Shown piece by piece: positions 6,185 through 54,677 of a DNA stretch of 64,000 nucleotides. The stretch is from NCBI RefSeq assembly GCF_024832785.1, contig NZ_CP116615.1:1240001-1304000 (forward strand), in the 5' to 3' direction. The first letter of the stretch is position 1. The number at the start of each line of letters is the position of its first letter. The notes under the pieces were generated by a model. It did no database searches. It was given only the letters and a program-made list of their open reading frames with translations, and was not told the DNA's origin. A program made the translations under genes and the position numbers. This stretch comes from Fontisphaera persica. Lineage in GTDB: Bacteria; Verrucomicrobiota; Verrucomicrobiia; Limisphaerales; Fontisphaeraceae.

Positions 6185-6189
6185 GAACT

Positions 6190-7452: not shown

Positions 7453-9416
7453 ACGCGGCCCTCCGTTACAGGGTTGAGCAGGCGCTGCAGCCGTTGCAAC
7501 ACGCTGGCAGCCCGCAAATCTTCCGTAATGACCAAGTCGGCCCGGTTCAGAAAAGCCGTGTCCATTTCGTCCAAATTCCTGCCCGCCACCTGGAGAATGG
7601 TTCTTTGATGCGGGCGGTTGGCTCTCATCCAGTTTAACAACTCGCCCACCCAGCTTGATTCCTGGCCGCAAATCAGAAATACCCCGGCAAAACGGGCGAC
7701 GATGGAAGTGAGCATTTCACGCGCCTGCTCGGCCGAAGCCGCCGTGACCACCGAATACCCATTCTGCCGCAACAATTCGGCAGCAGCCTGGGCTTGTGCT
7801 GGCAAATCGCCCACCACGAGCAGGCGCAAGGGGGCGATTTGAGCCTTTTGGCGCTCGGCCTCGGTAAAATCGGCCTCTGGCAGCCACAGGCAAAAAGTGG
7901 CGCCGGCGCCTTCCACTGATTCCACGGAGATGGCTCCATGATGGCGTTCCACAAACAGCCGGGCATTGTACAGGCCAAGGCCGGAGCCTTTATTGGCTGA
8001 TTTGGTGGAGAAAAAAGGGTCAAAGATTAATGGCAACACCGATGGCTTGATGCCGCAGCCAGTATCGCCCACGCTCAGGCAAACACAAGGGCCTTGCGGA
8101 ATGGTGCCCACCATCACCCGCTGCGTTGGCATGGTGGCGTGGCGGCTGGTTTCCAATGTCAGCGTGCCCCCTTGCGGCATGGCCTCCGCAGCGTTCAAAG
8201 CCAGATTCACCACAACCTGGCGAAACTCCACCGGATCCACGTAAAGCGGCAACTGTCCTTCCGCCCAGCGGGACTTTACCGTGATTCGGCGAGACACCAC
8301 TTTGGCCAGCAGGTCCTGCAAATCGGCCATCAAGGCGTTCAAGTCTTCATAACTGCGTTCTCCAATCTTGCCGTGTTGCAGGCGCATGATGCGCTGCACC
8401 AGGTGGGTGGCCTGGCGCGTGCTGTTTTGAATGAGTTTGACGTATTCCCGGCAGGGATGGTGGTTTTCCTCCAATTGTACGCCGAGCGTTTCGGTCAGGG
8501 AGTGAATGCCGGCCATCAAATTGCTGAAATCGTGCGCCAACCCCATCATCAGCACGCTCAAGGCTTCCTTCCAGGAAACCGTCGTCAGCCGGTTTTCAGC
8601 GATGGTTTGGCGGGTGATGTCCATCCAGACCCCCTCATAGCCGAGCACCATTCCCTGGTCGGTCAGCACCGGCTGACGGTGTTCCAACACATAAAAAACC
8701 CGGCCGCTTTGTTGATGGCGCAGGCGGAAAGTGGTGGTCACCGGCTGCCGGCTGGACGCGGCGTGGCGAATTTGCTGGCGCAGTTCTTCGACATCCGCCT
8801 CGTGGATGACCTGCCAGAATCGGGTGGCTTGAACGCCCCATTCGGCCAGGGGGACCCCTGTCATCACTTCAATTTGCGGACTGACAAAGGAAAAGCTGAA
8901 GTCGGCGCGCTGGCTGAAAATGATGCCCGGCCAATGATGCATCAATTGATACAGCCGCGCCTCGGCGCGCGCCATGCGGATGAACATCTGGCGGCGTGAC
9001 TCCTCGGAGCGAAGCTGTTCGTCCCAGGCGCCTTCGGCCAGCTCGTTCAAAGGGGGCAAGGTGGAGCTGAGATGGACAAAGCAGGTTTGCTCATGTCGGG
9101 CAGATTTCCAGATAATCCAGTGGGAGGGATGTGTGCTTTTAAGGCAAAGCAAAAACTGGTCAAAGGGTGCCTTGCGTTCCTCCCATTCCCGCAGGGGGGC
9201 CTCCCATTCTGGAAACAATTGGCACAAGACAAGGCGTAGAGAATGGCCTCGCAGCTCCTCTTCGCGCAGGCCCAACCAGTTGGCCAGCGCATGGTTGGCG
9301 GACAAAATGATGCCTTCCTGGTTGACCACAGCCATGCCCTGTTCCAGCCAACCCAGAGGCAAATCCAGTCCCGCTTGCCGCGGCAATATGTTCAAGTCTT
9401 TGGTGTCCGCATTCAT
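7449..9416 (-). CDS. PAS sensor histidine kinase with degenerate C-terminal receiver
   Basis: First gene of the four-gene signalling unit, 655 residues. It has PAS-like regions at about 15-115 and 150-270, HisKA with His295 in LAHDFSNLM, and HATPase_c motifs VVNLALNAAEAM, GDTGCGI and NKGSGLGLYNA. The last 125 residues fold-match a receiver (LRLLVVGDLPAQAQAAAELL onward), but the acidic pocket reads VVGD and the phosphoacceptor strand reads VFLICGQ, with no Asp. It is therefore a pseudo-receiver that should not be phosphorylated. It may act as a protein-interaction or autoinhibitory module. The ATG at 9416 follows a 377-bp gap that must hold the promoter of the unit. Confidence 0.9.
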   Translation of the reverse strand: MNADTKDLNILPRQAGLDLPLGWLEQGMAVVNQEGIILSANHALANWLGLREEELRGHSLRLVLCQLFPEWEAPLREWEERKAPFDQFLLCLKSTHPSHWIIWKSARHEQTCFVHLSSTLPPLNELAEGAWDEQLRSEESRRQMFIRMARAEARLYQLMHHWPGIIFSQRADFSFSFVSPQIEVMTGVPLAEWGVQATRFWQVIHEADVEELRQQIRHAASSRQPVTTTFRLRHQQSGRVFYVLEHRQPVLTDQGMVLGYEGVWMDITRQTIAENRLTTVSWKEALSVLMMGLAHDFSNLMAGIHSLTETLGVQLEENHHPCREYVKLIQNSTRQATHLVQRIMRLQHGKIGERSYEDLNALMADLQDLLAKVVSRRITVKSRWAEGQLPLYVDPVEFRQVVVNLALNAAEAMPQGGTLTLETSRHATMPTQRVMVGTIPQGPCVCLSVGDTGCGIKPSVLPLIFDPFFSTKSANKGSGLGLYNARLFVERHHGAISVESVEGAGATFCLWLPEADFTEAERQKAQIAPLRLLVVGDLPAQAQAAAELLRQNGYSVVTAASAEQAREMLTSIVARFAGVFLICGQESSWVGELLNWMRANRPHQRTILQVAGRNLDEMDTAFLNRADLVITEDLRAASVLQRLQRLLNPVTEGRV

Positions 9417-9793
9417 CGAAAGCCTTCCCGACTTTTCGACGGCGACCTTCCCACCGACCGGCCCGGCGCTTTTTCTCCCGTATTTTTCACGCCTGGCAAC
9501 TACACGTCGCCACTGTCCTATCGGCGGTTTTGCCGGCCGTCTTAAGTCTTTTTTTACTCACGCATTTTGCCCTAATCGTTGCGCGTCGGCAAATGGTTAG
9601 TCGCTGGCGTTCTCCTCCCGCAGATTGGATGGTAGCAGATGGCAGGCTGGCATAGGCCCTCCTTGCCGGTGACAAGTCTTAGACCCGCCAAGTGCACTGC
9701 CTAATGAAAGGCGGGGTAAGAAGATGGTAGTGACGCCTTCCGCAGCGCCCCACAAGTGCAACTTCTCAGGATTGTCGGTGAATCAAAGGCAAA
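9417..9793. other. Intergenic region upstream of the kinase unit
   Basis: This 377-bp gap lies between two minus-strand genes. It should contain the end of the HDOD regulator transcript and the promoter of the four-gene kinase/HD-GYP unit. I found no convincing rho-independent terminator, no clear -35/-10 pair and no plausible additional gene in it. Confidence 0.5.
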
Positions 9794-11020
9794 TCAATTG
9801 GGAGACTGCCGGTCGCGCTGATGGAACAACGCCTCCCAGCGCGGCAAATGTTCCTCAACGCCGCATTCGCGCAAATATGCTGTGTCCATGGGCACGCTCA
9901 GACGCGGCGTTTCATGCGCGCGCGAAGCCCCCACAATGGCTTGGGCCACATGGAGGCCCGTAAGCGCATTCAATCCACGATTGGCCGAACTGGAGGGACG
10001 GTATTGGAAGCCAATGGCTTCGGTAATTTGCACCGGCAATCCCCATAATCCCATTAAATAGGCGCCCACTTCTGCATGGGTGATTCCCAGGGCTTTTTGT
10101 TCGATTTCGGGCAGGGGTTGTTGGGATTTGCCAGCTTCGGCAAGCAATTCTGAATAGGTGTCGCGCAAGGAAGTGGCCAGAACAAGGCAGCCCACCCCGC
10201 GGAGCAGCCCGGCAGTGAAGGCCGCTTCCTGTTCGGGGGTATCTGCGGAGTCCACGGCCAGGAGATTCCGGGCCAGTGTGCCCACCACCAGGCTTTCGTA
10301 ATAAAGTTTGTGGGCATCCAAGCCAGGATAGTCTTTGATGTCAAAACAGGAGAATACTTTCATGGACAGGGCCAGGGCGCGCACCGTGCCCACGCCCAGG
10401 AGCTGTACAGCCTCGGTCACGTCGCGCACGGGCTGGGAGAAACCGAAAAACGCTGAATTGACCAGTTGCAGGAGGCGCGCGGTCATGCCGGCATCCCGGC
10501 AAACAAAAGACGCAATTTGCTCGGGAGTGGAATAGGGCGTTTGCAGTTCATCCAAGACACGGAAAAGCAACTCCGGCAAGGAGGGCAGGGAGCGGATTTT
10601 ACCGGCGATTTCCTTAATCCAGGGCTCATGAATGTGCTCCTGCAAATCAAAGATGCGAGCCAGCGTATTTTGTAGGGTCTTGACATTGCAGGGTTTGCTT
10701 AACCATTGGTGCACGGACCCAATGCTCTGCAGCACCCGCTCCTGCTCGGTGTAGCCCGTCAGCACCACCCGGGCCGTGGCAGGGTGATGCTCTTGTAATT
10801 CCGCCAATAACTGGGAACCGCTCATTTCCGGCATGCGCATGTCCGTAACAACGATATCAAAAGCGCGTTCGCGCATCATTTCCAAGGCCTTGGGCCCACT
10901 TTCCGCAATCTCCACCTCCCAATCCGGAGCGGCGCGCCGCAGGGCGGTCTGGTAAACATTTAGCACCATGCGCTCATCATCCACCAGGAGCACACGTTTT
11001 TTATGATTTGGCTGAGCCAT
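9794..11020 (-). CDS. Response regulator with HDOD output domain
   Basis: A 408-residue receiver-HDOD protein. The receiver covers about 8-125, with the acidic pair in LLVDDE, phosphoacceptor Asp60 in VVTDMRMPEMSG and Lys109 in LSKP. An HDOD domain follows (about 145-340), with the family-typical stretch LPSLPELLFRVL and NSAFFGFSQPV. HDOD domains are related to HD phosphohydrolases but usually lack catalytic activity and serve as signalling platforms, often in motility or stress circuits. The frame is open to 11110, but the ATG at 11020 starts directly before the receiver (MAQPNHKK). It lies 377 bp upstream of the kinase unit on the same strand and is a plausible partner for one of those kinases. 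Confidence 0.9.
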   Translation of the reverse strand: MAQPNHKKRVLLVDDERMVLNVYQTALRRAAPDWEVEIAESGPKALEMMRERAFDIVVTDMRMPEMSGSQLLAELQEHHPATARVVLTGYTEQERVLQSIGSVHQWLSKPCNVKTLQNTLARIFDLQEHIHEPWIKEIAGKIRSLPSLPELLFRVLDELQTPYSTPEQIASFVCRDAGMTARLLQLVNSAFFGFSQPVRDVTEAVQLLGVGTVRALALSMKVFSCFDIKDYPGLDAHKLYYESLVVGTLARNLLAVDSADTPEQEAAFTAGLLRGVGCLVLATSLRDTYSELLAEAGKSQQPLPEIEQKALGITHAEVGAYLMGLWGLPVQITEAIGFQYRPSSSANRGLNALTGLHVAQAIVGASRAHETPRLSVPMDTAYLRECGVEEHLPRWEALFHQRDRQSPN

Positions 11021-11365
11021 AAAATGTCCACTTAGGGCAAGAAATAAATCCCGCCATGAAATGGCATCGGCACTTTGCGTAAATACTTGAATTACCAAGA
11101 TATATAACATTTTAATACAACTGGGCGCCTTTTATTTCCTCGGCTTATGTGCAGGATGACGGGCCAGTGACGTTTCCGAACAGGATTTTCCCTACCTGTG
11201 AACCCCAGCACGCGCACAGCATTGCCAAACTGAAAGGGGTCTGGATGGTTTGCCTAGGCCCCTAAAATCGCCAGCGGTGGGAGGGGGAAATTAAAACAAA
11301 AGACATGAAAACGGCACAAAGGCAGGCATTTGGCAACTAAACTGCTGAATAAAGACTTTAATCAA

Positions 11366-11439: not shown

Positions 11440-14400
11440 ATGAAAGGTTTTTGGAGCCGTTGGGCAGGCTGGGGATGCCTGCTTGGGCTAGTTCTTTTTG
11501 CGTCAAATTTGCGCGCAGCAGGAGGACTTTACTTTAACGGCATTGATACCTATGTGGATTTCGGTGCCGCTTTGCCCAGTTTGGGTTTGTCCAATTTCAC
11601 TTTGGAGGTTTGGTTTCGGTGGGATGGAGGGGGGCAGGCAGCGAGCAGCGGCTCAGGAGGCGTATCGGCCATTCCCTTGATTGCCAAAGGCCGGGGGGAA
11701 GCCGATGGAGATAACCGAGATTGTAATTATTTCTTTGGAATACAACCGGACCAACGGGTGCTTGCTGCGGACTTTGAGAATTATTCCAACGGCGGCAACA
11801 ACCCGATTTTAGGGGTGACCACGATTACCACTGGTGTTTGGCATCATGCCGCAGTGACTTATGATGGCACACAATGGGCCTTGTATTTGAATGGACGACT
11901 GGAGCGCACGCTGGCAGCAGGGCAAGTGCCTCGTTATGACAGCATTCAATGGGCGTCTCTGGGGTCAGCATTGACCTCAGCGGGGGTGCCTTCGGGCTAT
12001 TTTCAAGGAGTGTTGGACGAGGCCCGCATTTGGAATTACGCACGCCCCGCCGCCACGATATCCAATGAGATGACCCTGACTATTTCCACGGCCCCGGGGT
12101 TGGCAGGCCGTTGGGCATTGGACGATGGTGCAGGAAACGTGGCGCAAGACTCATCGGGAAATAGCCTTATCGGTCAGATTCGGGGGGCAGTTGTCTGGAG
12201 CGATGGCTATCCCTTTGTGGAGCCGGCTACGGCCTGGGTGGCTTACAATGACCACTACCCCGGGCCTACCACGCATTCCAATGCCACGGCTTGGAATGTG
12301 TTTGATACTTTTAATGGCGCCCCGGGTAATCGAGGCAATTTGAAGAACATCGAGACGGGAGCCAACACCCCGGTGGTGCTTACCATAACCAATTTGAATG
12401 TCAGTCCCGGCACCGCGGCGGGCGCTCCGCTGCCAGGGACGCCTGCGTATGAAGTTTTCAACGGCTTTGTGGATTTCGGCAGCGCCGATAATTATCACTC
12501 CATATTGCTTGCTCCCAACGCAGTGGTGGCGCATGTGTTCACGGGTTTGAATCCGCAGCGACGTTATAATTTTCATGGCACGGCCGTTCGCGGCAATTCG
12601 TCCTATACCACCCGTTATTCTTTGTTTGAACTGAGCGGCGCCAACTCATTTACTCCGGCTCACACCTCGAATGCCCTGACATCAGCCCACTTGCCCGGGC
12701 AATTAGGGGCCAATCAAGTGGCCATCAACACGGGCTTTAACACCTCGGGAGATATGTGTGTGTGGTTAAACATTGATCCGGGGCCGGATGGCAGCATTAC
12801 CATTTTTTCGCGAAAATACACGGGCGCCCTGCCTGGCGGACAGCAGGCGGACACCGTCAACAGTTCTTACGCGTTGACGGCAATAAGGCTTGAGGAGGTG
12901 GGCGCGGGATTGACGGTGGCCATCACCAACCCTGTGGACGGGGCCGAGTTTGAGGCGCCGTTGCATCTGCGGATTGATGCTTCGGTGAGTGGCAGAGCCA
13001 CCAATGTGGTGTTTTTTGTCAATAATTGGCGTTTGGGAGAGGATGCCGCCGCCCCTTATTCACTGACATGGAGCAATGCCATCACCGGCACCAACGCATT
13101 GTGGGTGGTGGCGTCAGATACGCGGGGGAATGCCTATACCTCGTCCGTGGTAAGCGTTGTAGTGCGTCCGCAGCCCACCAATGCCGTGCCACCAGCGATT
13201 GCCCAAATCATGCCTCCTCCCGGGGCATCGTTGGGGAGCCTGTCCAATGTAACCGTGACCTTCACCGAGCCGGTGATTAGGGTGGATGCGGGGGATTTGC
13301 TGGCCAACCAGACGCCTGCCTTGAGTGTCGTAGGGGGGCCGACTCAATACACCTTTACCTTTGCCCCCATGCCCCCGGGAACGGTGAATCTGGAATGGGC
13401 GGTGAATCATGAAATTCGCGATGTCGGCACACCCACTTACGCTTTTAATGGACAACCCACCTGGTCATACACCCTGATGGATGTCACGCCGCCGGTCATT
13501 GTGAGCCGCACACCAGTTCCCGGCGCTTGGGCCACCAATCTCATTTCCGCTACGGTGTTGTTCAGTGAAGTAGTGAACGGGGTGGATGTTTCAGATTTGC
13601 TGGTGAATGGACAGCCAGCCTTCCGTTTGACCGGCGGGGGCACTACTTACACCTTTTGGTTTGAGATGCCGCCCGTTTTGACCTTGGCTCAATTGACCTG
13701 GGCTGAAGGCCATGGCATTACCGACTTGGGAGGGAATCCATTGGCTGCCAGTTCCGTGACCGAACCATGGGGCATCGTGCACGGCTTGCCGTTGGAAGAG
13801 TTGGTGGCCTCGAATGCGGTTTATCGGTTTTTCCGCGGGTACACCGAGGCGTCCACGCCCATTCAGGCATGGCGCTCTTTGAATTTCGATGACAGTTCAT
13901 GGGAGAGCGGGCCGGCGCCGTTTTATTATGAAAACCAACCCGGTTCTGCCACTGCCTATACCGGGAACACCGCCCTATTGGACATGTATGGGGCGTACAC
14001 CTGTGTCTTTCTCCGGCGCGTTTTCCAGGTGCCCAATCCTTCCGTCGTGGCCATGGCTTTTGCGCGAGGACGGGCTGACGATGGTTATGTGCTTTATTTG
14101 AACGGCGTGGACATTGGCCGGCATAACATGCCGGCGGGAGACCTAAGCATTACCACTCGTCCCTCAGGTGGGGCGGTGGCGGAACCGCCCACGAATAATT
14201 ATTTTGTCATTTCCAGCAATTTGATACTGGCTGGCTCCAATGTCCTTGCGGTGCAGGCGTTTAACGACCAGGTGACCAGCAGTGATTTTCTCATTGATTT
14301 GGAATTGGTGGGCTATATTAACAATCCAGCCACGCAACCGCCCCGGATAATCTCGCTGACCCCGCCTCCTGGAGAAGTGTTTGAGTTGACCAATCTTTGG

Positions 14401-17400
14401 GTGCGTTTTTCGCGACCGGTCACCGGCCTTATTGCCGGTGATTTGCTCATCAATGGCGTGCCTGCCTCCGGGGTGCGAGGGAGCAATGACATATATGAGT
14501 TTAGTTTTGCCCGGCCCGCTTTTGGACCAGTGGTGGTGACGTGGCGGACGACGCACCAAATTCGGGATTTTGCCACGCCGCCCAATCCTATGATTCCGGC
14601 GGTGGCCTACAATTATTCCCTGGTTAACCCCAATGCGCCAATCATCGTGAATCAAACCCCCCCCGCCGGGGCGACTGTGGACAACGAATTAACACGGGTG
14701 GAGGTGTTATTTAGCCGTCCGGTGACGGGGGTGGATGCCGCAGATTTGCTGGTCAATGGAGTGCCTGCCAGCGGTGTCACCGGAAGTGGGGACCGGTATG
14801 TATTCACTTTCGCTTCGCCGGCCTATGGCACGGTTGGCATAGGATGGGCAACGAATCATGGCATACGTTCAGCGGACAATCCCGCCGATACCTTTGATGG
14901 ATTGCGTGCCGGCAATCGCTGGCAATATACCCTCGTAGATCGCTTGCCGCCGGTGATTGTGTCGCTGACACCTCCCGCAGGGGCTACGGTCAGCAATCTA
15001 ACCCAGGTGACCATTCAGTTCAGCGAGCCGGTGCAAGGGGTGGATGCCGGTGATTTATTGGTCAATGGTGTGGGGGCGGCTTCCGTGACGGGCACGGGCG
15101 CCGTTTTTACGTTCACCTTTGCCCCGCAGAACGGCACCTTGTTGCAATTTACCTGGCTTGCCACGCATGGCATTCGGGACCTGGCCGTTCCACCGAATGC
15201 CTTTAACGCCAATGCTCCGGGTGCCACCTGGAATTATTATTCGGTGGATCAAACGCCGCCAGTGGTGGCGCATGTCAGTCCCTTTAGTGGTGCCACCCTT
15301 TGCGATTTGAGTACGGTGGAGGTCACTTTCAGCGAGCCGGTCCAGGGAGTGACTCCAGATGATTTGCGGTTGAATGGCGTGCCGGCGGTGACGGTTCGCG
15401 GTGCTGGTACCGGGCCTTATCGTTTTTCATTTAACCCACCACCAGCGGGGCCAGTGGCGGTGACCTGGAGTTCCAATCATGGCATAGCTGACATGGCCAA
15501 TCCGTCCAATCGCTTTGGCGGCCAGGGATGGAACTATCAATATCAGCCACAGGTTTCTTTTGAGGGCCAGGTGGTCATCAATGAAATCATGTACCATCCC
15601 GGCTCGGAAAATTCGGCGGAAGAATTCATTGAAATCTATAATGCCACCAGCCAGGCCATTTCATTGGCGGGGTGGCGTTTTACGCGGGGGGTGGATTTTG
15701 TATTTACCAACGAAGTCTTGCCAGCCAGGGGTTATTTGGTGGTGGCGGCTGATCTCAATGCTTTCCGTGCCAAGTACCCCGGAATCACCAATGTGGCGGG
15801 CGATTGGACGGGCCGTCTAAGCAATAACGGCGAGGAAATCTTGTTACGCGATGCCTGTGGCAATGTGGTGGACAGTGTTATTTACAGTCCCGACGGCGAG
15901 TGGGGGATTCGCCAGCGGGGGCCTAATGATCAAGGCTATTATGGATGGGAATGGTTTGCAGCCCATGATGGCTGGAAGGTCAACACGTACACCGGCCAGA
16001 CGGAGGGGAATCGCTCATTAGAATTAGTGAATCCGGCCCTGCCTCGCCAGTTTGGCCAGAACTGGCAGGCCAGCCAACTACAGGGTGGCACGCCAGGGGC
16101 GCCCAATTCCGTGGCACGCACCAACACTGCTCCGGTCATCACCGGAGTTCGACACGACCCGGCTGTGCCCAAACCAGCCGATTCGGTCGTAGTGCTGGCC
16201 AGGGTTGCCGATGAACAACCGCAAACCATGCAGGTGATAGTTTATTATCGCGACCATACCACAACCAGTCCCGGGGCCTGGAATGCAGCGCTAATGTATG
16301 ACGATGGTTTGCACCGGGATGGCGCTGCCGGAGATGGCCTCTTCGCCACCGATTTACCGCCGCAACCCAATGGCACGATCATTGAGTATTATGTGCAGGC
16401 GTTGGACGACCTATATCAAATCCGCACCTGGCCGGCGCCTGCGCGGCAGTTGAGCGGAAGCACTCCAGAATTCGCTCAAACCGCCAATGCCCTTTATCAG
16501 GTGGATGATAATCTGGCCCCGGCAGGCACGGCGCAAGCGGAGCAACCTTTCCTCCGCCTAATCATGACTGGAAGCGAGCGTCAGGAATTCGCCAATCTCA
16601 GCGCCAACGCCTATAACAGCGACGCAGAAATGAACGCCACCTTCATCACGTGGGATGCGGGTGGCTGGGAGGTGCGGCATAATGTGGGTGTGCGCATCCG
16701 GGGGGCGGGGTCAAGAAGCCGACCGGTTAAAAATTGGCGGGTCAATCTTCCGGCGGACCGGCGATGGAAAGGCCTGACCGAAATTAACCTGAATGCGCAG
16801 CACATTGACCTGCAATTGATTGGCTCAGTGTTGTCATCGCTGGTGGAACTGCCCGCAGCGCAAGGGTATCCCGTGCAGGTGCGTTTGAATGGCGTCAATC
16901 TCGCCCGCAGTGCGCCACCAGATACCTCCCGCAGCGATGGTTATGGCACGTATCTTTTGCTGACGCCCTTGAATGGTGAATGGGCTGAAAACCTGCTGCC
17001 GCATAACAGCGGAGGCAACGTTTATCGCGGCTCGCGGTATCCGTGGACGGCCAACCTGGATTATCGGGGCACCAATTACCAGACCTACATCAATCTGGGT
17101 TATTCCAAGGCTTCCAATACCAGTGAGAATGACTGGACAGATTTGTTTGCATTGACGGCGGCATTGAATAACGCGACGCCGGACGATGCCCTCTACGCGG
17201 TCGGCGTGCGCAGCAACGCCAACGTGCAGATATTCATGCGCTACTTCGCGCTATGCAATTTTGTCAACTACAATGAGAGTTCGATGTGCAATGGCGTGGG
17301 GGATGACTACGCCATGTATCGCGGGGTGGCCGATCCTCGCTTTATTTTGCTGCCCCATGACTACGACACGATTCTGGGACTGGGCGACAACGACCGCATG

Positions 17401-20400
17401 CCGGACCCGACGGTCAGCATCTGGCGGATGGTGGATTCTCCGCGCAGCACGGATCCCAGCATGCGGGCCAATTATCTGCAGCGGTTCATGCGGCATCCGG
17501 AATTCGCTGCAATCTATTTGCGCGAACAACAAAGTTTGGTTGACGGAGTGATGCGCCCGGAAATCTTTAACACCCTGGTGCGCCAATGGCTGGGTGGGTG
17601 GGCTGACCCGGGGCGCATCGCTCAAATGACCAACTTTGTGGCCCAACGCCGGGCCTATGTGCAAAGTCAAATTCCCACGAATAACACGCTGAATATCAGC
17701 CTGAGCACAAGTCAGGGGTATTACTACACTTCTTCAGCCAACGTCACCTTGAACGGTTTGGCCAACTCGCTGCGGGTGACTTCCGTGCGAATCAACGGCA
17801 ACCCTGCCAGCTATACGGTATGGAATGGGCAGTGGAGCGGGACTACGACTTTGTCACCCGGGCTTAATCAGGTGACAGTACAATGGCTGGATGCCAACCA
17901 GGGAGAAGTACTGCGCACCAACGTCATGGTTTGGTATGATAACGGCACTACGCGCAATGTATCCGGCACGCTTGCCGCGAACACCTTGTGGAGTGCGGCG
18001 CAGGGACCCTATCGGGTGACGTCGGATGTCACGGTGCCGGAGGGGCTGACCTTGACGATTCAGCCGGGTACGACGGTCTATTTTGACAGCGGCGCACGCC
18101 TGATTGTTAACGGCCGGATTCTGGCTGAAGGCACCGATTACCAGCGCATCATCTTCACCCGCCAGCCCGGCTCCTCTGCTACTTGGGGCGGCATTCGCAT
18201 CAATGGCAATGCCGCCTCGCCCGAATGTCGCCTTGCTTATGCCCACTTTGAGCATTACGGAACAGCGGCGATCACGGCCAACGGGGCGACCGTCTTGCTG
18301 GATCACCTTACTTTTGGCACGACCAACCAGCGTTATTTGAACCTGGATAACGGCTGTTCATTCGTTGTGAGTTATTGTGTATTTCCGGCGCCTTCGGCCG
18401 CCATTGAACCGGTGCACGGCACGGGCGGCATCAAACCCGGTGGCCGCGGATTGTTCTACCGCAATTATTTCGGGGCCGTGAATGGCTATAATGACACCGT
18501 GGATTTCACCGGCGGCAATCGGCCTGGCCCGATTTTGGAGTTCATCGAAAATGTGTTCATGGGCAGTGGGGATGATTTGTTGGATTTGGACGGCACCGAT
18601 GCGCATGTGGAGGGCAATATCTTTTTGCACACGCATCGCAATGGTTCGCCCGACACTGCCAGCGCGATTAGCGGTGGGCGTGATGGCGCGAACACCTCCG
18701 AGATTACCATCGTGCGCAACATCTTCTACGACTGTGACCACGTGGCTCTGGCCAAGGAAGGAAACTACTACTGGTTGCAAAACAACACCGTGGTGCGGCT
18801 CACCCGCCAGGGCGGGGTAGATACCGCGTCGGCGGTCATTTGCATGGCAGACGAAGGTACAGCCGAAGGCGCAGGCGCATACCTGGAAGGGAACATCATT
18901 CAGGAGGTGGAGGCCCTGGTACGCAACCAAACCTCTTCAGTAGTTGTCTATACCAACAACCTTCTGCCCCTGCCATGGTCAGGTCCGGGGGGCAGCAATC
19001 TGGTGGCGGCGCCCAGCTTCAAGCGCATTCCCAATCTCTCGGAAACCTACTTTGCCTCATGGGAGCAGGCTCAGATGATGTGGGATTGGTTCAGCCTCGC
19101 GGCCGATTCACCAGCACGCGGACGTGGCGTGTTTGGCATGGATTTAGGGGCACGCATACCGGCAGGGCCGGTATTGCAGCCACTACCAGCCGAGGTCGGG
19201 CAGCGCGATTTGAATATTGGAGTGGCCGGGGCGGGATTGTCAGGTTACCGCTACCGTTTGGATGGGGATAATTTTACCGCCAACATTTTCCCCATGGACC
19301 AACCTATTGCGTTACGCAATCTGCTGGACGGCCTGCACACTTTGGAGGTCATGGCGCAAGACAGCGCCGGGATTTGGCGGACGCAGCAAATAGCGTCGCT
19401 CAATTTTACTGTGAACCTGGCAGCCGTGCCGGTGGTTCTCAGTGAGATTTTGTCCGCCAATCGGCAAGCCTTTGTTTGGCATGGCAGCACTCCTGACGTC
19501 ATTGAGCTTTATAATCCATCGCCGGCGCCGGTAAATCTGGGCGGTTGCCGGTTGACCGATGATCCAGCAAATCCTGATAAATACACCTTCCCGGCAGGGA
19601 CGACGATACCGGCGGGAGGTTACCTGCTGGTTTTTGCGGATGATCGTTTCAACGTGCCCGGGTTACACACGGGTTTTGCGCTCGATCAGAACGGCGAGGG
19701 GGTTTATTTGTTCGACGCCCATTCCCGCGGGGGACGCCTGCTGGACGCCGTTGAATTTGGTTTCCAAATTCCTGATTTGAGCATAGCCCGGCTCCCGGAT
19801 GGCCAGTGGAATCTGGCCCAACCTACCTTGGGGTTGGCCAACCGTGGCGTTATATTGGGAGATGCGATGGCTTTGCGGGTCAATGAATGGATGGCCCGGC
19901 CGTTGCAAGGGCCCGACTTTATCGAAATTTACAATCCCACCCCCTTGCCTGTAGCGTTGGGTGGGCTGTATTTGACAGATAATTTGGTGGGTTGGCCGGA
20001 CCGCCACCGGATTCGGCCGCTAAGCTTTATTGCCCCTTATGGATTCGCGGTGTACGAAGCGGACAGTCAGGTGGCAGCCGGGCCGTGGCACTTGAATTTC
20101 TCGCTCAGCGGCGAGCAGGGGATGGTCGCCCTGGTCAACCAACAGTTACAGGTGATAGATGCGGTGGCTTATGGGCCGCAACTTGTCGGTCAATCTCAAG
20201 GGCGTTCTCCCAATGGAGCAGCCAACATTATACGTCTGTCCACGGCCACGCCCGGTTCTGGCAATCCATTGGATATTGCGCCGCAAATTCAAACGCTGAC
20301 CCTGGTGAACTTTACCAACTTTTGGCGCTATGAGGAATCAGGCACGGACTTGGGCACGGCGTGGCGCGAAGTGGGTTACGATGATTCCTCCTGGCCCACT

Positions 20401-23118
20401 GGTCGGGCCTTGCTGGCGGGAGCCACCACCGGCACTTTGCCGGAGTACGGCGGCGTGCCGGTAAATACACCGCTGAGCATTGTAACTGACAAACGGACCT
20501 TCTATTTCCGCACCACTTTTGTGTTGCCCACCAACGTGATGGTGACGGGATTGCAAATCCGGCACGTGTTGGACGATGGCGCCGTGTTTTATGTCAACGG
20601 CCAGGAGGTAACGCGTTATAACATGCCAACGGGTGAGATAAACTACCTCACCTTTTCCGCCTCCTCAATCAGCACCGCCAGTCTATTGGGCCCCTCGGAA
20701 TTTCCCATGACGGGTTTGCGGCCGGGGACCAATGTGCTGGCGGTGGAAGTGCATCAGTCTTCCTCCACCAGTTCTGACCTGGTCATGGGCATGGAATTGG
20801 TGGCCCTGTTGCAAACCAATCAGGCTGGTGGGCCCGCGTTGGTGTTAAACGAGGTCATGGCCGACAACCTCAGTTATACCAATCGTGATGGCTCGGTCAC
20901 GGACTGGATTGAACTGCGGAATCTATCAGCGCAAACCATGGATTTGTCAGGCATGAGTTTGACCGATGACCCGGCCAATCCCCAGCGTTGGGTCTTTCCG
21001 CCGGGGGTAAGTTTGCCGCCGCTGGGCTATTTGGTGGTGCTGTGCGATAATAACCGGCCGGCTTCCACGAATGCAGACCTGATTCTAAATACGGGATTTG
21101 GTCTGTCAGCGGCGGGTGACGGGGTTTATCTTTACGACCGCCCGCAAAACGGCGGGGCCTTGCTGCAGTCTGTGGTGTTTGGCTTGCAGGCCATGGACTT
21201 TGCTTTGGGACGAGTGCCGGATGGTTCTGGAGTGTGGCAACTGACGCTGCCCACCCCCGGCAGCGCCAATATTCCTGCCGTCCTAGGTTCACCAACCTCA
21301 TTACGTATTAATGAATGGATGCCGCGGCCAGCTTCGGGAGATGACTGGTTTGAGATTTATAATGCAGGGGCTCAACCAGTTGAATTGAGCGGCATGTATT
21401 TGACCGACAACCTCGGTAATCCCACCAAACACCCATTGCCGCCGCTCTCATTTATTGGCGCCCAGGCATCAGGCTATCGCGTCTTGTACGCGGACAATAA
21501 TACCTCAGCCGGAGCCAATCATGTGAATTTCCGTCTGGATAATACGCGTGAGGCCATCGGATTGGCTGGTACCAATGGGGTGTTATTGGATGCGATTACC
21601 TACGAATATCCAGAGTCCGGTGTCTCCGAAGGCCGATTCCCGGATGGAGCCTCGGTGACGGTGCGGTTCTCGGATTCCGCTTCGCCCGGCGATGCCAATT
21701 ATCGCCGCTTGACCAATGTGGTCATCAGCGAGGTTCTGGCCAACTCCAACGAGAACTTTGAAGATGCCATTGAGTTGCAAAACATCAGCGGCGAGCCGGT
21801 GGACATCAGCGGCTGGTGGCTCAGCGACAGCCGGAATCATTTAATGAAATTCCGCATCCCGAACGGGACCGTCCTGCCGCCGGGTGGTTTTGCGGTGTTC
21901 TACGAGTATCAATTTAACGCCAATCCTGACGATGAAAGCAGTTTTGCCGTGTCCTCGTGGGGTGAGGATATTTATTTGTCTGCGGGCAATAGCAATGGTT
22001 TGACGGGATGGCGCACTTCGGTGGATTTCGGACCGTCAGCAGCCAACAGCTCCATGGCCCGTTATATTCTGAGTACAGGCGAAAAGGAATTTGTGTCCGC
22101 CTCGGCGAGGACTTTTGGCCGGGACAACCCGGCCTCGGTACAGGAATTCCGGCAAGGGAATGGCGCGTCGAATGCGCCACCGTTGGTGGGACCTCTGGCT
22201 ATAACGCAGATTATGTTCCAGCCGCCCTTGTTGGGGACCAATGATAACACGCGTGATGAATACATTGAGATTCGGAATATCACCACGCAATCACAACCTT
22301 TGTTTGATCCCTTGCGTCCTACGAATACCTGGCGTTTGCGCAACGGGGTGGACTTTGATTTTCCGGCAGTGACACTGCCGCCGCAAGGGGTGCTGCTGGT
22401 GGTGGGATTTGATCCCATTAATGATCCGCAAACTCTGGCGGCTTTCAGGGCCGTGTACAATCTGGGGCCGGGCGTGGTGGTTTTAGGCCCCTGGTCCGGC
22501 AAGCTGGCCAATGACGGCGAGACGATTGAACTTAAACGCCCCGGCGAACCGGATACTAACGGAGTGCCCTATTATATGGTGGAAAGAATCCGTTACTCCG
22601 ACCGCGCCCCCTGGCCTTTGATACCAGCCGGGAGCGGGCTGGCTTTGCATCGTTTGAATTTCACAGGTTACGGCAATGAGCCTACCAACTGGATGGCCGC
22701 GGCGCCGGCGCCGGCTTATTTACCTTTGACGGATACCGACGGCGATGGCCTGCCGGATGAATGGGAGCGCCGCTTTGGTTTGAACCCAGAGAACCCGATT
22801 GATGCCTTGCAAGATGTGGACGGCGACGGCATGACGAACTTGCAGGAGTACCTGGCTGGCACCAACCCGAACGACCGCGCCAGTGTGCTCCGGTTGGAAC
22901 AGCCGGCCCGAGATGAGGCGAGCGGGGGATTCGTCCTGCAATTTACCGCCGTTGCCGAGCGCAGCTACACCATTCAGCAGCGCAATTCCTTGGGCCAGGG
23001 AAGTTGGCAGAAATATATGGATATTGCTCCAGCCGCCACCAATCGCCCAGTGCGCGTCATTTTACCCAATGGCGGCGGACAGCAGTATTATCGCCTAATC
23101 ACGCCCATGCAGCCGTAA
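11440..23118 (+). CDS. Giant secreted LamG / lamin-tail / CotH / beta-helix mosaic protein
   Basis: A single uninterrupted 3892-codon frame. Residues 1-28 form a signal peptide. Order of parts: LamG-like domain (about 27-220); unknown region (255-480); Ig-like domain (490-580); six Ig-like repeats of about 100 residues with an FSEPVxGVDAxDLLVNG core (584-1372), split after the second by a beta-sandwich segment carrying FDDSSW; first lamin-tail domain (1374-1557); CotH-kinase-like domain (about 1704-2077) with LLPHDYDTILG; right-handed beta-helix (about 2170-2510); six further lamin-tail domains between 2663 and 3754, with a second DDSSW segment at about 2957-3125; a calcium-binding motif DTDGDGLPDEWE repeated as DVDGDGMTNLQE (3765-3810); and a C-terminal beta domain. 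It is probably exported and surface-bound or released. The ligand is unknown. Domain limits are estimates by eye. Confidence 0.9.
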   Translation: MKGFWSRWAGWGCLLGLVLFASNLRAAGGLYFNGIDTYVDFGAALPSLGLSNFTLEVWFRWDGGGQAASSGSGGVSAIPLIAKGRGEADGDNRDCNYFFGIQPDQRVLAADFENYSNGGNNPILGVTTITTGVWHHAAVTYDGTQWALYLNGRLERTLAAGQVPRYDSIQWASLGSALTSAGVPSGYFQGVLDEARIWNYARPAATISNEMTLTISTAPGLAGRWALDDGAGNVAQDSSGNSLIGQIRGAVVWSDGYPFVEPATAWVAYNDHYPGPTTHSNATAWNVFDTFNGAPGNRGNLKNIETGANTPVVLTITNLNVSPGTAAGAPLPGTPAYEVFNGFVDFGSADNYHSILLAPNAVVAHVFTGLNPQRRYNFHGTAVRGNSSYTTRYSLFELSGANSFTPAHTSNALTSAHLPGQLGANQVAINTGFNTSGDMCVWLNIDPGPDGSITIFSRKYTGALPGGQQADTVNSSYALTAIRLEEVGAGLTVAITNPVDGAEFEAPLHLRIDASVSGRATNVVFFVNNWRLGEDAAAPYSLTWSNAITGTNALWVVASDTRGNAYTSSVVSVVVRPQPTNAVPPAIAQIMPPPGASLGSLSNVTVTFTEPVIRVDAGDLLANQTPALSVVGGPTQYTFTFAPMPPGTVNLEWAVNHEIRDVGTPTYAFNGQPTWSYTLMDVTPPVIVSRTPVPGAWATNLISATVLFSEVVNGVDVSDLLVNGQPAFRLTGGGTTYTFWFEMPPVLTLAQLTWAEGHGITDLGGNPLAASSVTEPWGIVHGLPLEELVASNAVYRFFRGYTEASTPIQAWRSLNFDDSSWESGPAPFYYENQPGSATAYTGNTALLDMYGAYTCVFLRRVFQVPNPSVVAMAFARGRADDGYVLYLNGVDIGRHNMPAGDLSITTRPSGGAVAEPPTNNYFVISSNLILAGSNVLAVQAFNDQVTSSDFLIDLELVGYINNPATQPPRIISLTPPPGEVFELTNLWVRFSRPVTGLIAGDLLINGVPASGVRGSNDIYEFSFARPAFGPVVVTWRTTHQIRDFATPPNPMIPAVAYNYSLVNPNAPIIVNQTPPAGATVDNELTRVEVLFSRPVTGVDAADLLVNGVPASGVTGSGDRYVFTFASPAYGTVGIGWATNHGIRSADNPADTFDGLRAGNRWQYTLVDRLPPVIVSLTPPAGATVSNLTQVTIQFSEPVQGVDAGDLLVNGVGAASVTGTGAVFTFTFAPQNGTLLQFTWLATHGIRDLAVPPNAFNANAPGATWNYYSVDQTPPVVAHVSPFSGATLCDLSTVEVTFSEPVQGVTPDDLRLNGVPAVTVRGAGTGPYRFSFNPPPAGPVAVTWSSNHGIADMANPSNRFGGQGWNYQYQPQVSFEGQVVINEIMYHPGSENSAEEFIEIYNATSQAISLAGWRFTRGVDFVFTNEVLPARGYLVVAADLNAFRAKYPGITNVAGDWTGRLSNNGEEILLRDACGNVVDSVIYSPDGEWGIRQRGPNDQGYYGWEWFAAHDGWKVNTYTGQTEGNRSLELVNPALPRQFGQNWQASQLQGGTPGAPNSVARTNTAPVITGVRHDPAVPKPADSVVVLARVADEQPQTMQVIVYYRDHTTTSPGAWNAALMYDDGLHRDGAAGDGLFATDLPPQPNGTIIEYYVQALDDLYQIRTWPAPARQLSGSTPEFAQTANALYQVDDNLAPAGTAQAEQPFLRLIMTGSERQEFANLSANAYNSDAEMNATFITWDAGGWEVRHNVGVRIRGAGSRSRPVKNWRVNLPADRRWKGLTEINLNAQHIDLQLIGSVLSSLVELPAAQGYPVQVRLNGVNLARSAPPDTSRSDGYGTYLLLTPLNGEWAENLLPHNSGGNVYRGSRYPWTANLDYRGTNYQTYINLGYSKASNTSENDWTDLFALTAALNNATPDDALYAVGVRSNANVQIFMRYFALCNFVNYNESSMCNGVGDDYAMYRGVADPRFILLPHDYDTILGLGDNDRMPDPTVSIWRMVDSPRSTDPSMRANYLQRFMRHPEFAAIYLREQQSLVDGVMRPEIFNTLVRQWLGGWADPGRIAQMTNFVAQRRAYVQSQIPTNNTLNISLSTSQGYYYTSSANVTLNGLANSLRVTSVRINGNPASYTVWNGQWSGTTTLSPGLNQVTVQWLDANQGEVLRTNVMVWYDNGTTRNVSGTLAANTLWSAAQGPYRVTSDVTVPEGLTLTIQPGTTVYFDSGARLIVNGRILAEGTDYQRIIFTRQPGSSATWGGIRINGNAASPECRLAYAHFEHYGTAAITANGATVLLDHLTFGTTNQRYLNLDNGCSFVVSYCVFPAPSAAIEPVHGTGGIKPGGRGLFYRNYFGAVNGYNDTVDFTGGNRPGPILEFIENVFMGSGDDLLDLDGTDAHVEGNIFLHTHRNGSPDTASAISGGRDGANTSEITIVRNIFYDCDHVALAKEGNYYWLQNNTVVRLTRQGGVDTASAVICMADEGTAEGAGAYLEGNIIQEVEALVRNQTSSVVVYTNNLLPLPWSGPGGSNLVAAPSFKRIPNLSETYFASWEQAQMMWDWFSLAADSPARGRGVFGMDLGARIPAGPVLQPLPAEVGQRDLNIGVAGAGLSGYRYRLDGDNFTANIFPMDQPIALRNLLDGLHTLEVMAQDSAGIWRTQQIASLNFTVNLAAVPVVLSEILSANRQAFVWHGSTPDVIELYNPSPAPVNLGGCRLTDDPANPDKYTFPAGTTIPAGGYLLVFADDRFNVPGLHTGFALDQNGEGVYLFDAHSRGGRLLDAVEFGFQIPDLSIARLPDGQWNLAQPTLGLANRGVILGDAMALRVNEWMARPLQGPDFIEIYNPTPLPVALGGLYLTDNLVGWPDRHRIRPLSFIAPYGFAVYEADSQVAAGPWHLNFSLSGEQGMVALVNQQLQVIDAVAYGPQLVGQSQGRSPNGAANIIRLSTATPGSGNPLDIAPQIQTLTLVNFTNFWRYEESGTDLGTAWREVGYDDSSWPTGRALLAGATTGTLPEYGGVPVNTPLSIVTDKRTFYFRTTFVLPTNVMVTGLQIRHVLDDGAVFYVNGQEVTRYNMPTGEINYLTFSASSISTASLLGPSEFPMTGLRPGTNVLAVEVHQSSSTSSDLVMGMELVALLQTNQAGGPALVLNEVMADNLSYTNRDGSVTDWIELRNLSAQTMDLSGMSLTDDPANPQRWVFPPGVSLPPLGYLVVLCDNNRPASTNADLILNTGFGLSAAGDGVYLYDRPQNGGALLQSVVFGLQAMDFALGRVPDGSGVWQLTLPTPGSANIPAVLGSPTSLRINEWMPRPASGDDWFEIYNAGAQPVELSGMYLTDNLGNPTKHPLPPLSFIGAQASGYRVLYADNNTSAGANHVNFRLDNTREAIGLAGTNGVLLDAITYEYPESGVSEGRFPDGASVTVRFSDSASPGDANYRRLTNVVISEVLANSNENFEDAIELQNISGEPVDISGWWLSDSRNHLMKFRIPNGTVLPPGGFAVFYEYQFNANPDDESSFAVSSWGEDIYLSAGNSNGLTGWRTSVDFGPSAANSSMARYILSTGEKEFVSASARTFGRDNPASVQEFRQGNGASNAPPLVGPLAITQIMFQPPLLGTNDNTRDEYIEIRNITTQSQPLFDPLRPTNTWRLRNGVDFDFPAVTLPPQGVLLVVGFDPINDPQTLAAFRAVYNLGPGVVVLGPWSGKLANDGETIELKRPGEPDTNGVPYYMVERIRYSDRAPWPLIPAGSGLALHRLNFTGYGNEPTNWMAAAPAPAYLPLTDTDGDGLPDEWERRFGLNPENPIDALQDVDGDGMTNLQEYLAGTNPNDRASVLRLEQPARDEASGGFVLQFTAVAERSYTIQQRNSLGQGSWQKYMDIAPAATNRPVRVILPNGGGQQYYRLITPMQP

Positions 23119-24455: not shown

Positions 24456-26819
24456 ATGGTACCTGTAATTTGCATCCCTGGCCTGTTTCTTTTACTGATA
24501 GGGTGGATGGTCCTGCCACTGGCTGCTCAATCCCAGGAAAGAACCAATGTTTCTGCTTTGATCAATCTAGCCGGCCAGCATCCGGCGTTGACGGCCGACG
24601 AGGCGGGCTTTGAGGAAGTCGTCTTCGTCAAGCGCAAGCCCTATTCCTCCGACCATTATTACACAGACATCAATAATGGCACTGCACCTGACCGTTTCGT
24701 GCCGGAAAATGGAATTTACATTTTTAATTTGCGCACACGACAGGTGCGCCCAGTGGTCACCGCGGCCCAAATGCCGGGAGGGCGTGGTTTAATTGGTAAA
24801 ATCAGTCTATCGTTTGATGCTCGCCGGGTGGTATTCGACTTTCGTGAAAATCCAGCCGCGGGCTTCCGTATTTGGGAGGTGGCTATTGATGGAAGCGGTC
24901 TTCGTCAAATTTCCCATCCACCTCCCGATGAGGCCCAAAAGGCGGCTCGTTGGGCGCCGGGATGGCATACCGACGACATTCACCCTTCCTACCTGGCTGA
25001 TGGCCGAATCATATTTTCCTCCACGCGCAATGAGCACACGATTCTGTGCGGAGGCAGCTCCCATCTGGTGGCACCCGGCCTGCATCGCATGAATCCCGAC
25101 GGCTCCCATGTCGAGCAACTCACCCGCAGCCCGGTCAGCGAATTTTGCCCCTTGTTAATGGCGGATGGGCGCGTGATGTATCATCGCTGGGAGTATATTG
25201 ACAAGGGGGCACGGGTGGCCAAGACCATCTGGTCCATGAACCCCGATGGCGGGCGGGTCCAGGAGTTGTTTGGATTGGCGGAGGATACCACCACTGTTTA
25301 TATGTACCCCCAGCCCCTCCCGGGTGAGGGTCACCAGTTTGTGTGTGTGGGAACCTGTCACTTTCCGCAGGGAGGCTGCGTAGGCTCCATCATGCTGGTG
25401 GATTACGGGCGGGGGGTGCGCGTCCGTGGCCCCGACCCCGACCAGGCGGAATATCAGCAATGGGATGAGCGCTTCCCCGTGGTGAATTTAACGCCGCATG
25501 TATTTGTGCAGCGCCGCACCGAGCCAGGCTGGTATTTTCGTCTGGCCAATGGCAAATACGTGCATGACCGGACTGGTCAGAGTGGGCATTTGTATGGGAA
25601 TCCGTATCCCATTAATCGCCGCCAATTTCTGATTTCGTTCAAGTATAATCCAGCGCATCATTACCAAAATGTGCCCAACGCTTACGCGCTCTATGCCTTG
25701 GACGTCGAGGGTCGGCATCGGGAAGTGTACACCGATGCGCAATTATCATGCTGGCATCCCATTCCTTTGCGTCCGCAAACGGTGCCGCCTGTCATTCATA
25801 CCTGGCGCGACACCGCGTACGCGGCCCAGACCCAGGCCGTGTGCCTGGTGGCGAATATATACCAGGGCATGGAGGGGGTGGCGCCCGGCACGGTGAAGTG
25901 GTTGCGCATTAACGAAGCATTGCCCCGATACTGGTCCACCGGCCGCCGGTGGAGTCCTTCTTTGAGCAGTTCGGAATGGAAGGCGGCCTTATGGCCCAGG
26001 GTACAATGGGGCGTGGTGCCAGTGGAACGCGATGGCTCGGCGCATTTTGTGGTGCCAGCCCATCGCAGCATCTTTTTGCAGGCGCTGGATGCGGATTTCC
26101 GGGAAATTCAACGTGAACGCACCTACGTGCATTACACGCCGGGGGAAGTGCGTTCCTGTACCGGCTGCCACGGGCAGGGACATCACACACCGGTGACAGC
26201 AGCGGCCCCTGTGCCCTTGGCGGCGTTGCGTCCTCCAAGTGTGCCGCAGCCGCAGCCGTGCGACCTGGTGGAAAATGGCGGCAACGGACAGGCTGGCCAG
26301 GTCATTCATTACCCCACCGATATTCAACCTATATGGGACAAGAAATGCGTGTCCTGCCATGGCGCCCAGTCACCGGCTGGCGGTTTGCGGCTCACCGGTG
26401 AGCCAACCTTGTTTTACAACACCTCTTATGAGGAGTTGGCGCGCAAGGAATTGGCAGGGCCGCTAATTTCCGAGTTTCTGTCGTTTAACAAGGGTGATCA
26501 GGGCAATTACAACGGCGCTTACCTGCCGCCCAAGCGGTTGGGCAGTCATGCCAGTGTTTTGGTGGCCATCCTGACGCAGCAGAATCATCCCAAGAACGCC
26601 AAGGATGACCATACGCAAATGTTGACGCCCATGGAGCTGATGGTTGTTTGTCGCTGGGTGGACAGCAATTACCAGTTTTATGGCTCCTATTTTGGCCGGC
26701 ACCACGTGCGCTGGCGGGAAGCCGACCCCAAAAAACCGGAATATGATCCCGCCGACTTCCGACGCAAGGCTACTTTTGAGGAAGCGATTGGCTTTTTAGC
26801 TCCCGACTGGCATCGCTAG
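24456..26819 (+). CDS. Secreted HzsA-related protein with TolB-like propeller and two CxxCH motifs
   Basis: A 787-residue exported protein; residues 1-24 form a hydrophobic signal ending near PLAAQS. The N-terminal half resembles a TolB/PD40 beta-propeller, with strings such as LHRMNPDGSHVEQLT and IWSMNPDGGRVQELF. The C-terminal part has two c-type haem motifs, CTGCH at 568-572 and CVSCH at 631-635. This layout is typical of HzsA-related proteins of Planctomycetes and Verrucomicrobia, named for similarity to the hydrazine synthase alpha subunit, though most of these hosts do not make hydrazine. A periplasmic redox role is likely and the substrate is unknown. The IS ends 47 bp upstream, so its original promoter may have been displaced. 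The next gene is convergent, only 6 bp away. Confidence 0.8.
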   Translation: MVPVICIPGLFLLLIGWMVLPLAAQSQERTNVSALINLAGQHPALTADEAGFEEVVFVKRKPYSSDHYYTDINNGTAPDRFVPENGIYIFNLRTRQVRPVVTAAQMPGGRGLIGKISLSFDARRVVFDFRENPAAGFRIWEVAIDGSGLRQISHPPPDEAQKAARWAPGWHTDDIHPSYLADGRIIFSSTRNEHTILCGGSSHLVAPGLHRMNPDGSHVEQLTRSPVSEFCPLLMADGRVMYHRWEYIDKGARVAKTIWSMNPDGGRVQELFGLAEDTTTVYMYPQPLPGEGHQFVCVGTCHFPQGGCVGSIMLVDYGRGVRVRGPDPDQAEYQQWDERFPVVNLTPHVFVQRRTEPGWYFRLANGKYVHDRTGQSGHLYGNPYPINRRQFLISFKYNPAHHYQNVPNAYALYALDVEGRHREVYTDAQLSCWHPIPLRPQTVPPVIHTWRDTAYAAQTQAVCLVANIYQGMEGVAPGTVKWLRINEALPRYWSTGRRWSPSLSSSEWKAALWPRVQWGVVPVERDGSAHFVVPAHRSIFLQALDADFREIQRERTYVHYTPGEVRSCTGCHGQGHHTPVTAAAPVPLAALRPPSVPQPQPCDLVENGGNGQAGQVIHYPTDIQPIWDKKCVSCHGAQSPAGGLRLTGEPTLFYNTSYEELARKELAGPLISEFLSFNKGDQGNYNGAYLPPKRLGSHASVLVAILTQQNHPKNAKDDHTQMLTPMELMVVCRWVDSNYQFYGSYFGRHHVRWREADPKKPEYDPADFRRKATFEEAIGFLAPDWHR

Positions 26820-51382: not shown

Positions 51383-51623
51383 TGCCCCGCTGTTGTACGC
51401 CAAATGTTGCGGTTGCCAAACCTAATTTACTGCCATTTGTGGCAGCGCCGAAATGGGGCTCTGCCGCAGCCATAATGCGTGGGAAGGGCAGGGGATGGGC
51501 ATTCCCCGCCTGCGTTTTTCCGCTTCCTCCCTTGTCTTCCTCTTGCTCTCCAAGAGCTGAGGCCAGGCACCATGCCCACCATTCCGCTTGCGGGGGCGGG
51601 GGGCTTTGCTCAAACTAAGAAGC

Positions 51624-54466: not shown

Positions 54467-54542
54467 GGGTTGGTAGCTCAGTCGGTAGAGCAGTAGCCTT
54501 TTAAGCTATTGGTCCTGGGTTCGAGTCCCAGCCAACCCACCA
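54467..54542 (+). tRNA. tRNA-Lys (anticodon TTT)
   Basis: A 76-nt cloverleaf with acceptor stem GGGTTGG/CCAACCC, D arm GCTC-AGTCGGTA-GAGC, anticodon stem GTAGC/GCTAT around loop CTTTTAA (anticodon at 54500-54502), T arm CTGGG-TTCGAGT-CCCAG and an encoded 3' CCA. All stems pair. Confidence 0.97.
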
Positions 54543-54602
54543 GATTTTTGGAAAAGTATCGTGACAAAGCTGCAGGGAAAGTGCTATTCACCTGCGGCGC
54601 AA

Positions 54603-54677
54603 GACCCCATGGTCTAGCGGTTAGGACACCACCCTTTCACGGTGGTAGCCCGGGTTCGAGTCCCGGTGGGGTCGCCA
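54603..54677 (+). tRNA. tRNA-Glu (anticodon TTC)
   Basis: A 75-nt cloverleaf with acceptor stem GACCCCA/TGGGGTC, anticodon stem CCACC/GGTGG around loop CTTTCAC (anticodon at 54636-54638), T arm CCGGG-TTCGAGT-CCCGG and an encoded 3' CCA. It lies 60 bp after tRNA-Lys and is probably cotranscribed with it. Confidence 0.97.

Follow-up and report, generated by a model that had tools for sequence, protein, structure and literature searches.

A recurring giant protein of Verrucomicrobiota carries a CotH domain with conserved replacements at catalytic positions

The window (the whole stretch of 64,000 nucleotides of Fontisphaera persica that was analysed) contains at positions 11440..23118 of the + strand a single ATG-started frame of 3,892 codons plus a stop codon with 0 internal stops, which bears out the unbroken 11.7-kb frame of 3892 residues given in a preliminary description made from the letters alone. 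A same-genus orthologue (genome G001) aligned to the encoded giant protein without gaps across all 3,892 residues at 81.8% identity, and the whole-length dN/dS of this pair was 0.067, a ratio to be read with a dS of 1.8 that is near saturation. The equal length of the orthologue together with this ratio indicates that the frame is not due to chance, and on the same grounds an origin of the gene as an artefact or pseudogene was rejected. Among 17 segments compared in the genus pair, none had a lower dN than the CotH domain (0.050) or a higher identity (92.3% vs 81.8% overall). A scan for promoters and terminators near the start of the gene yielded nothing exceeding shuffled controls.

The surroundings include a row of signalling genes at 3875-11110 on the - strand (PAS/histidine kinase proteins, HD_5 and HDOD response regulators) and, at 24456-26819, a 787-aa protein with a match to the middle domain of hydrazine synthase alpha (6.6e-20) and a weak cytochrome match. 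A second CotH protein, encoded at 52315-54312 by a 665-aa ORF with Fn3_assoc and CHB_HEX_C_1, is D-type (catalytic Asp present, see below). Its ORF overlaps the end of an ORF with an FGE-sulfatase domain (51588-52421) and is followed by two tRNAs at 54467-54674, apart from which Rfam returned nothing in the whole window.

The giant protein is probably of a secreted or surface type. We infer its secretion route from a probable Sec signal peptide (about residues 1-27; 11440..11520) that was read by eye from the sequence and that agrees with the secreted nature proposed before. Further on, all on the + strand, lie a Laminin_G_3/ConA-like domain (residues 34-208; 11539..12063; Pfam 8.1e-19), corresponding to the LamG domain of the preliminary description, and a Big_7 Ig-like domain (493-575; 12916..13164; Pfam and local profile). 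The six Ig-like repeats noted earlier were recovered as six Big_5 repeats by local profile (584-1368), with repeats 1-2 at 584-778 (13189..13773) and repeats 3-6 at 967-1368 (14338..15543), separated by the first copy of an unnamed domain of about 160 residues (793-956; 13816..14307). The recurring core then begins with LTD 1 (1375-1483; 15562..15888; Pfam and local LTD profile), followed by a choice_anch_X-like domain, here termed the X domain (1599-1690; 16234..16509; NCBIfam NF041940 5.7e-07 and local profile), the CotH domain with its altered active site (1751-2050; 16690..17589), an Ig-like domain (2088-2165; 17701..17934; local profile, with Glucodextran_B at 7e-05, below the cut-off) and a parallel beta-helix region (2166-2577; 17935..19170). 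Behind this core are LTD 2 and 3 (2662-2912; 19423..20175), the second copy of the unnamed domain (2960-3120; 20317..20799), LTD 4 to 7 (3132-3719; 20833..22596), and a TSP3 calcium motif with a C-terminal domain (3763-3892; 22726..23115; TSP3_bac and a C-terminal family). The local LTD profile thus placed seven lamin-tail domains, as had been read from the letters, at 1375-1483, 2662-2774, 2809-2912, 3132-3248, 3285-3389, 3424-3525 and 3583-3719.

Pfam families above their cut-offs were LTD (1.6e-93), CotH (7.1e-20), Laminin_G_3, Big_12, Big_5, Big_7 and TSP3_bac, so that the profile search proposed in the preliminary description returned both LTD and CotH, and the calcium-binding element claimed for the C-terminus was likewise recovered. 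For the beta-helix region, also listed rightly before, the Pfam match was marginal (E 0.064, below the cut-off). An AlphaFold model of residues 2083-2577 built from two rows had a mean pLDDT of 58 and a pTM of 0.63. Its best 50 PDB matches in Foldseek had low TM-scores (best E 1.5e-3, none <= 0.001) and included polysaccharide lyases, tailspikes and the adhesin PfbA; most of these 50 are parallel beta-helices. Overall, every domain named in the preliminary description was found and its adhesin-like layout is supported; it had missed the two domains of about 160 residues, the X domain and a C-terminal domain of about 85 residues.

The two copies of the 160-residue domain are related to each other and were detected by local profile; the domain had no Pfam match, and a jelly roll fold is a guess. 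Matches to the two copies by phmmer were seen in 9 and 10 of 26 CotH loci of the same genome. The C-terminal domain of about 85 residues (22861-23115), which usually closes with an aromatic-Arg motif and a Pro near the terminus, had 70 matches in the genome (E <= 0.01), in frames reaching 6,802 aa. A role of this domain in sorting or anchoring is a guess.

The order LTD - X domain - CotH - Ig - beta-helix recurs in relatives. Searches with phmmer over 32 loci of relatives, which are 30 distinct genes (two were fetched twice) and mostly extend only 1.5 kb either side of CotH, matched LTD 1 in 31 loci, the X domain in 31, the Ig domain in 27 and the beta-helix in 28. One locus (L036), whose CotH domain is 58% identical to that of the giant protein, had a layout similar by eye, with LamG, Ig, the unnamed domain, LTD, X, CotH, Ig, beta-helix, LTDs, TSP3 and the C-terminal domain. 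A one-off mosaic was rejected on this shared layout and on the core block found in 27-31 of the 32 loci. The earlier label "mosaic" is therefore misleading, as the same architecture is found again in relatives and the orthologue is gap-free; the giant protein belongs to a family found repeatedly across one order of Verrucomicrobiota.

The CotH domain claimed before was confirmed by Pfam at residues 1751-2050 (PF08757; 7.1e-20), with 72.2 bits against a curated cut-off of 23.8, and a CotH match at E <= 0.01 was obtained for all 50 members of the subfamily that were scanned. A profile of the subfamily retrieved the solved CotH structures (PDB 5jd9/5jda) at 9.5e-20, and a profile from 15 CotH domains of the same genome (three of them E-type, see below) did so at 1.7e-44 and showed the motif of the solved CotH, FDGFVHN...PWDYD. 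By these profile matches, the domain of the giant protein is a CotH domain by descent. An AlphaFold model of the domain, from three rows only, had a pLDDT of 34.

CotH is described as retaining residues equivalent to PKA D166, N171 and D184, with the adenine stacked between Tyr142 and Trp245 (PMC12189002). We compared these positions by joint MAFFT alignment of 25 ordinary CotH domains of the same genome with 72 rows of the subfamily, which were chosen by similarity to the CotH domain of the giant protein and are not a random sample of CotH. The rows comprised the window protein, two named loci, 29 of 30 loci from an order-wide search (L038, the window gene itself, was omitted) and 40 picked from the list of that search, further matches of which are not in the alignment. 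They represent about 69 genes if L037/L092 are one gene, beside L039/L068 and L036/L040, and 63 of the 72 were mutually less than 80% identical. The catalytic Asp (PKA D166 position) was Asp in 25/25 ordinary domains and Glu in 72/72 subfamily rows, and at the PKA N171 position the ordinary domains have 21 Asn, 3 Ser and 1 Asp, against Asp in all 72 rows, which gives an E-x9-D pair (Glu1946-Asp1956; 17275..17307) in place of the usual D...N. We refer to domains with the catalytic Asp as D-type and to those with Glu there and Asp for the paired Asn as E-type; the genome encodes 25 D-type and 3 E-type domains, the latter in the giant protein and two paralogues.

In the region of PKA D184, the subfamily has an invariant Asp1974-x-Asp1976 (17359..17367; 72/72 rows at both positions), where 22 of the 25 ordinary domains have Asp and 3 have Gly at position 1974, and 14 have Asp at position 1976. 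The metal-binding Asp residues, which the preliminary description had named as a check on the CotH assignment, were thus found in part: D1974 and D1976 are present, and the catalytic Asp and its paired Asn are Glu and Asp. The Lys commonly seen in ordinary CotH domains (12 of 25, beside 2 Arg and 8 gaps) is also replaced (Pro 60, Val 9 of 72; Val in the giant protein), and K1764, which lies one residue past this place in the giant protein, is Lys in 11/72 rows. Invariant in 72/72 rows were R1752, R1754, G1755, N1785, Y1862, K1890, D1901, E1946, G1952, D1956, D1974 and D1976. Y1862 aligns to Y143 of the solved CotH chain, and we equated both, by an offset of one in this sequence comparison, with the Tyr142 described in PMC12189002. 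With the numbering matched by the same offset, 38 of the 72 rows have His and 34 have Tyr where the adenine sandwich has its Trp. Residue 1842 is Glu in 59/72 rows and Thr in the giant protein, and N1817 is a conserved Asn common to the giant protein's CotH and ordinary CotH.

The placement of one gap bears on the swap. In the MAFFT alignment Glu1946 faced the catalytic Asp and no gap separated it from the preceding helix, whereas HMMER and hhalign placed the gap otherwise, with N1951 opposite the catalytic Asp, so that the swap becomes a loss plus an insertion. N1951 is variable (N 37, T 24, S 9, I 2 of 72). Under both placements, the giant protein has no catalytic Asp and D1956 stands opposite the Asn. 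A replacement of Asp by Glu is favoured by the out-of-order locus L109, which reads LEGG in place of the FDGF of CotH, and by long-looped D-type domains, whose Asp stays at the end of the helix. Misalignment as the apparent source of the Glu was considered and is not fully excluded.

Of 320 genomes of the order, that of F. persica among them, 107 had a match to the CotH domain of the giant protein (E <= 1e-10); the E/D swap was read in the aligned rows only. In a phylum-wide draw, the profile matched 37 of 387 genomes (own included), with D-type relatives among them. Nine loci from outside the order were returned, three with E...D (L109, L110, L111) and six with Asp; L109 combines E...D with the usual Lys and Trp. 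In a tree of 64 rows, one side of a branch with an SH-aLRT of 100 consisted of the 31 E-type rows from within the order (the two own paralogues and 29 taken from the 72), and the E-type branch including L109 and L111 reached 96; the trees did not include L110, whose match was split in two. After removal of the motif columns these values were 99 and 75, respectively, and with only 75 for the latter, the case for one origin shared with the out-of-order rows is not firm. The E-type CotH domains of the order are a distinct clade. Among relatives that bear a name, the nearest are a Verrucomicrobia and a Pedosphaera MAG, and CotH was found in 49 of the 58 genomes of relatives (own included), with at least ten matches in 28 of them.

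The invariant swap, the single E-type clade and the lowest dN of the CotH segment argue for a conserved, re-built site and not for decay. A decayed kinase is unlikely because the replaced positions are invariant in 72/72 rows, and this strict conservation argues for a function that is either changed, or non-catalytic and still under selection. Catalytic residues that were swapped and then conserved hint, in these alignments, that the enzyme has changed or has become a dedicated pseudo-enzyme. Several kinase-fold proteins whose catalytic residues are exchanged have proved to be regulators or to catalyse new chemistry.

The genome of F. persica (4.73 Mb, one contig) had 28 CotH matches and 107 LTD matches, and 21 of the 28 CotH ORFs have at least one LTD. 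Six of these 21 ORFs (L015, L020, L023, L025, L027, L028) are interrupted within G-rich, repeat-rich stretches; homology to paralogues resumes in another frame and a match to the C-terminal domain follows downstream. Because of where the breaks fall, sequencing or assembly error is as likely a cause of the six frameshifts as phase variation. A seventh ORF with an odd end (L031) had no match of this kind, and L030 has no C-terminal motif. Four contigs of G001 (C6, C50, C52, C64) end at a similar near-repeated stretch behind CotH, with matches from base 1-8, as expected for near-identical paralogue segments.

Compared with the CotH spore-coat kinase (PF08757; 5jd9, 5jda), the giant protein shares the profile family, the Asp residues of D-x-D, the stacking Tyr and N1817, but has Glu for Asp, Asp for Asn, no usual Lys and His/Tyr for Trp, and its CotH domain is embedded in a secreted-type protein of 3,892 aa. 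The cellulosomal protein Cthe_0239 (LTD, LTD, Fn3, CotH; 117 kDa), as presented in PMC6083626, likewise unites LTDs and CotH in one chain; it is roughly one third of the size of the giant protein, in which dockerin was not among the 11 Pfam families matched at E <= 0.1. The role of CotH in cellulosomes is called unclear in PMC12484212. Bacterial LTDs are reported as parts of extracellular nucleases and, in tandem repeats, of secreted proteins (PMC6085458, PMC4486849), and the Mucorales CotH invasins are a case of CotH used at the cell surface, though a fungal one (PMC7140881). The pair Fam20A/Fam20C offers a secretory kinase fold in which Fam20A is without a catalytic residue (PMC5413348); unlike the giant protein, both are animal proteins, with a sequence link to CotH according to PMC12189002. 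Among the open-licence titles and abstract starts listed, none dealt with CotH of Verrucomicrobiota or with CotH without the catalytic Asp, although the body of papers that contain both names may mention them. The component domains and the pairing of LTD with CotH were already known, and the E-type clade with its fixed swap figured in none of these titles and abstract starts.

Starting from the observed architecture, residues, conservation, selection and clade, we tentatively favour, at a strength just short of an even chance, a surface or matrix protein whose re-built CotH domain binds nucleotide and a divalent metal and is still a transferase. The block LTD - X domain - CotH - Ig - beta-helix would form the heart of the protein, and the LamG, Ig and LTD arms would serve binding and spacing and, with the beta-helix, fit surface or matrix binding. 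The E-type site would have been re-built by exchange of the catalytic Asp for Glu and of the metal Asn for Asp while D-x-D and the adenine-stacking Tyr were retained; the invariant acidic residues and this Tyr speak for a predicted working nucleotide-metal site. The substrate of the putative transferase might be an envelope or matrix partner, or a polymer held by the beta-helix and LTDs. Against this reading we count the CotH model at pLDDT 34, the lost usual Lys, the change of Trp to His/Tyr, the alternative gap and T1842. A Glu that replaces the HRD-type Asp usually leaves a kinase weakened or dead, which tells against an active enzyme, and extracellular ATP is not expected, which tells against a nucleotide-dependent enzyme outside the cell.

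The main and close rival, to which we give perhaps one chance in three, is a secreted pseudokinase, in which the E-type CotH would bind nucleotide or a partner without phosphate transfer and act as a scaffold or allosteric partner of D-type CotH. Consistent with it are the loss of both the catalytic Asp and the usual Lys, the presence of 25 D-type beside 3 E-type domains in the same genome, and the precedent of Fam20A, which is described as acting in this way for Fam20C (PMC5413348). However, the acidic positions are invariant in 72 rows, seemingly more than a non-catalytic fold needs, and in L109 the E...D pair coexists with the usual Lys and Trp.

An ordinary CotH protein kinase, with Glu and Asp as conservative stand-ins, that phosphorylates secreted partners or itself is improbable. 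The preliminary description had proposed an atypical kinase of this kind, and its CotH assignment (Pfam, above cut-off) and the D-x-D stand, along with the stacking Tyr, the invariant K1890 and a K1764 one residue from the usual Lys place. The catalytic Asp, the Asn and the usual Lys are replaced, however: the Asp is found in 25/25 D-type domains and 0/72 E-type rows, and K1764 is Lys in only 11/72 rows. Ordinary protein-kinase activity cannot be assumed from these residues, and we did not class the domain as an active CotH kinase because the defining catalytic residue is replaced. A pure adhesin, in which the CotH fold would be merely a binding module of a protein that holds polysaccharide, extracellular DNA or other cells, would suit the lyase, tailspike and PfbA matches of the beta-helix, the LTDs discussed as DNA-binding (PMC6085458, PMC4486849) and the Mucorales CotH that bind host GRP78 (PMC7140881), but is likewise improbable given that the slowest-evolving segment in the genus pair is CotH and not the binding arms, and that an acidic cluster is among the invariant residues.

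A bolder form of the transferase reading, which we consider rather unlikely, is that E-type CotH is a separate class of active extracellular enzyme with an all-acidic Glu/Asp/Asp/Asp metal site and another transfer reaction, which builds or modifies the matrix in Verrucomicrobiota. If true, E-type domains would transfer with another donor, to another acceptor (such as polysaccharide on the fused beta-helix), or by nucleotidyl transfer, and would do so without the usual Lys. The fixed-swap clade recurs across one order, usually in large frames, and E-type and D-type domains in one genome provide a clean contrast for the role of CotH outside spores.
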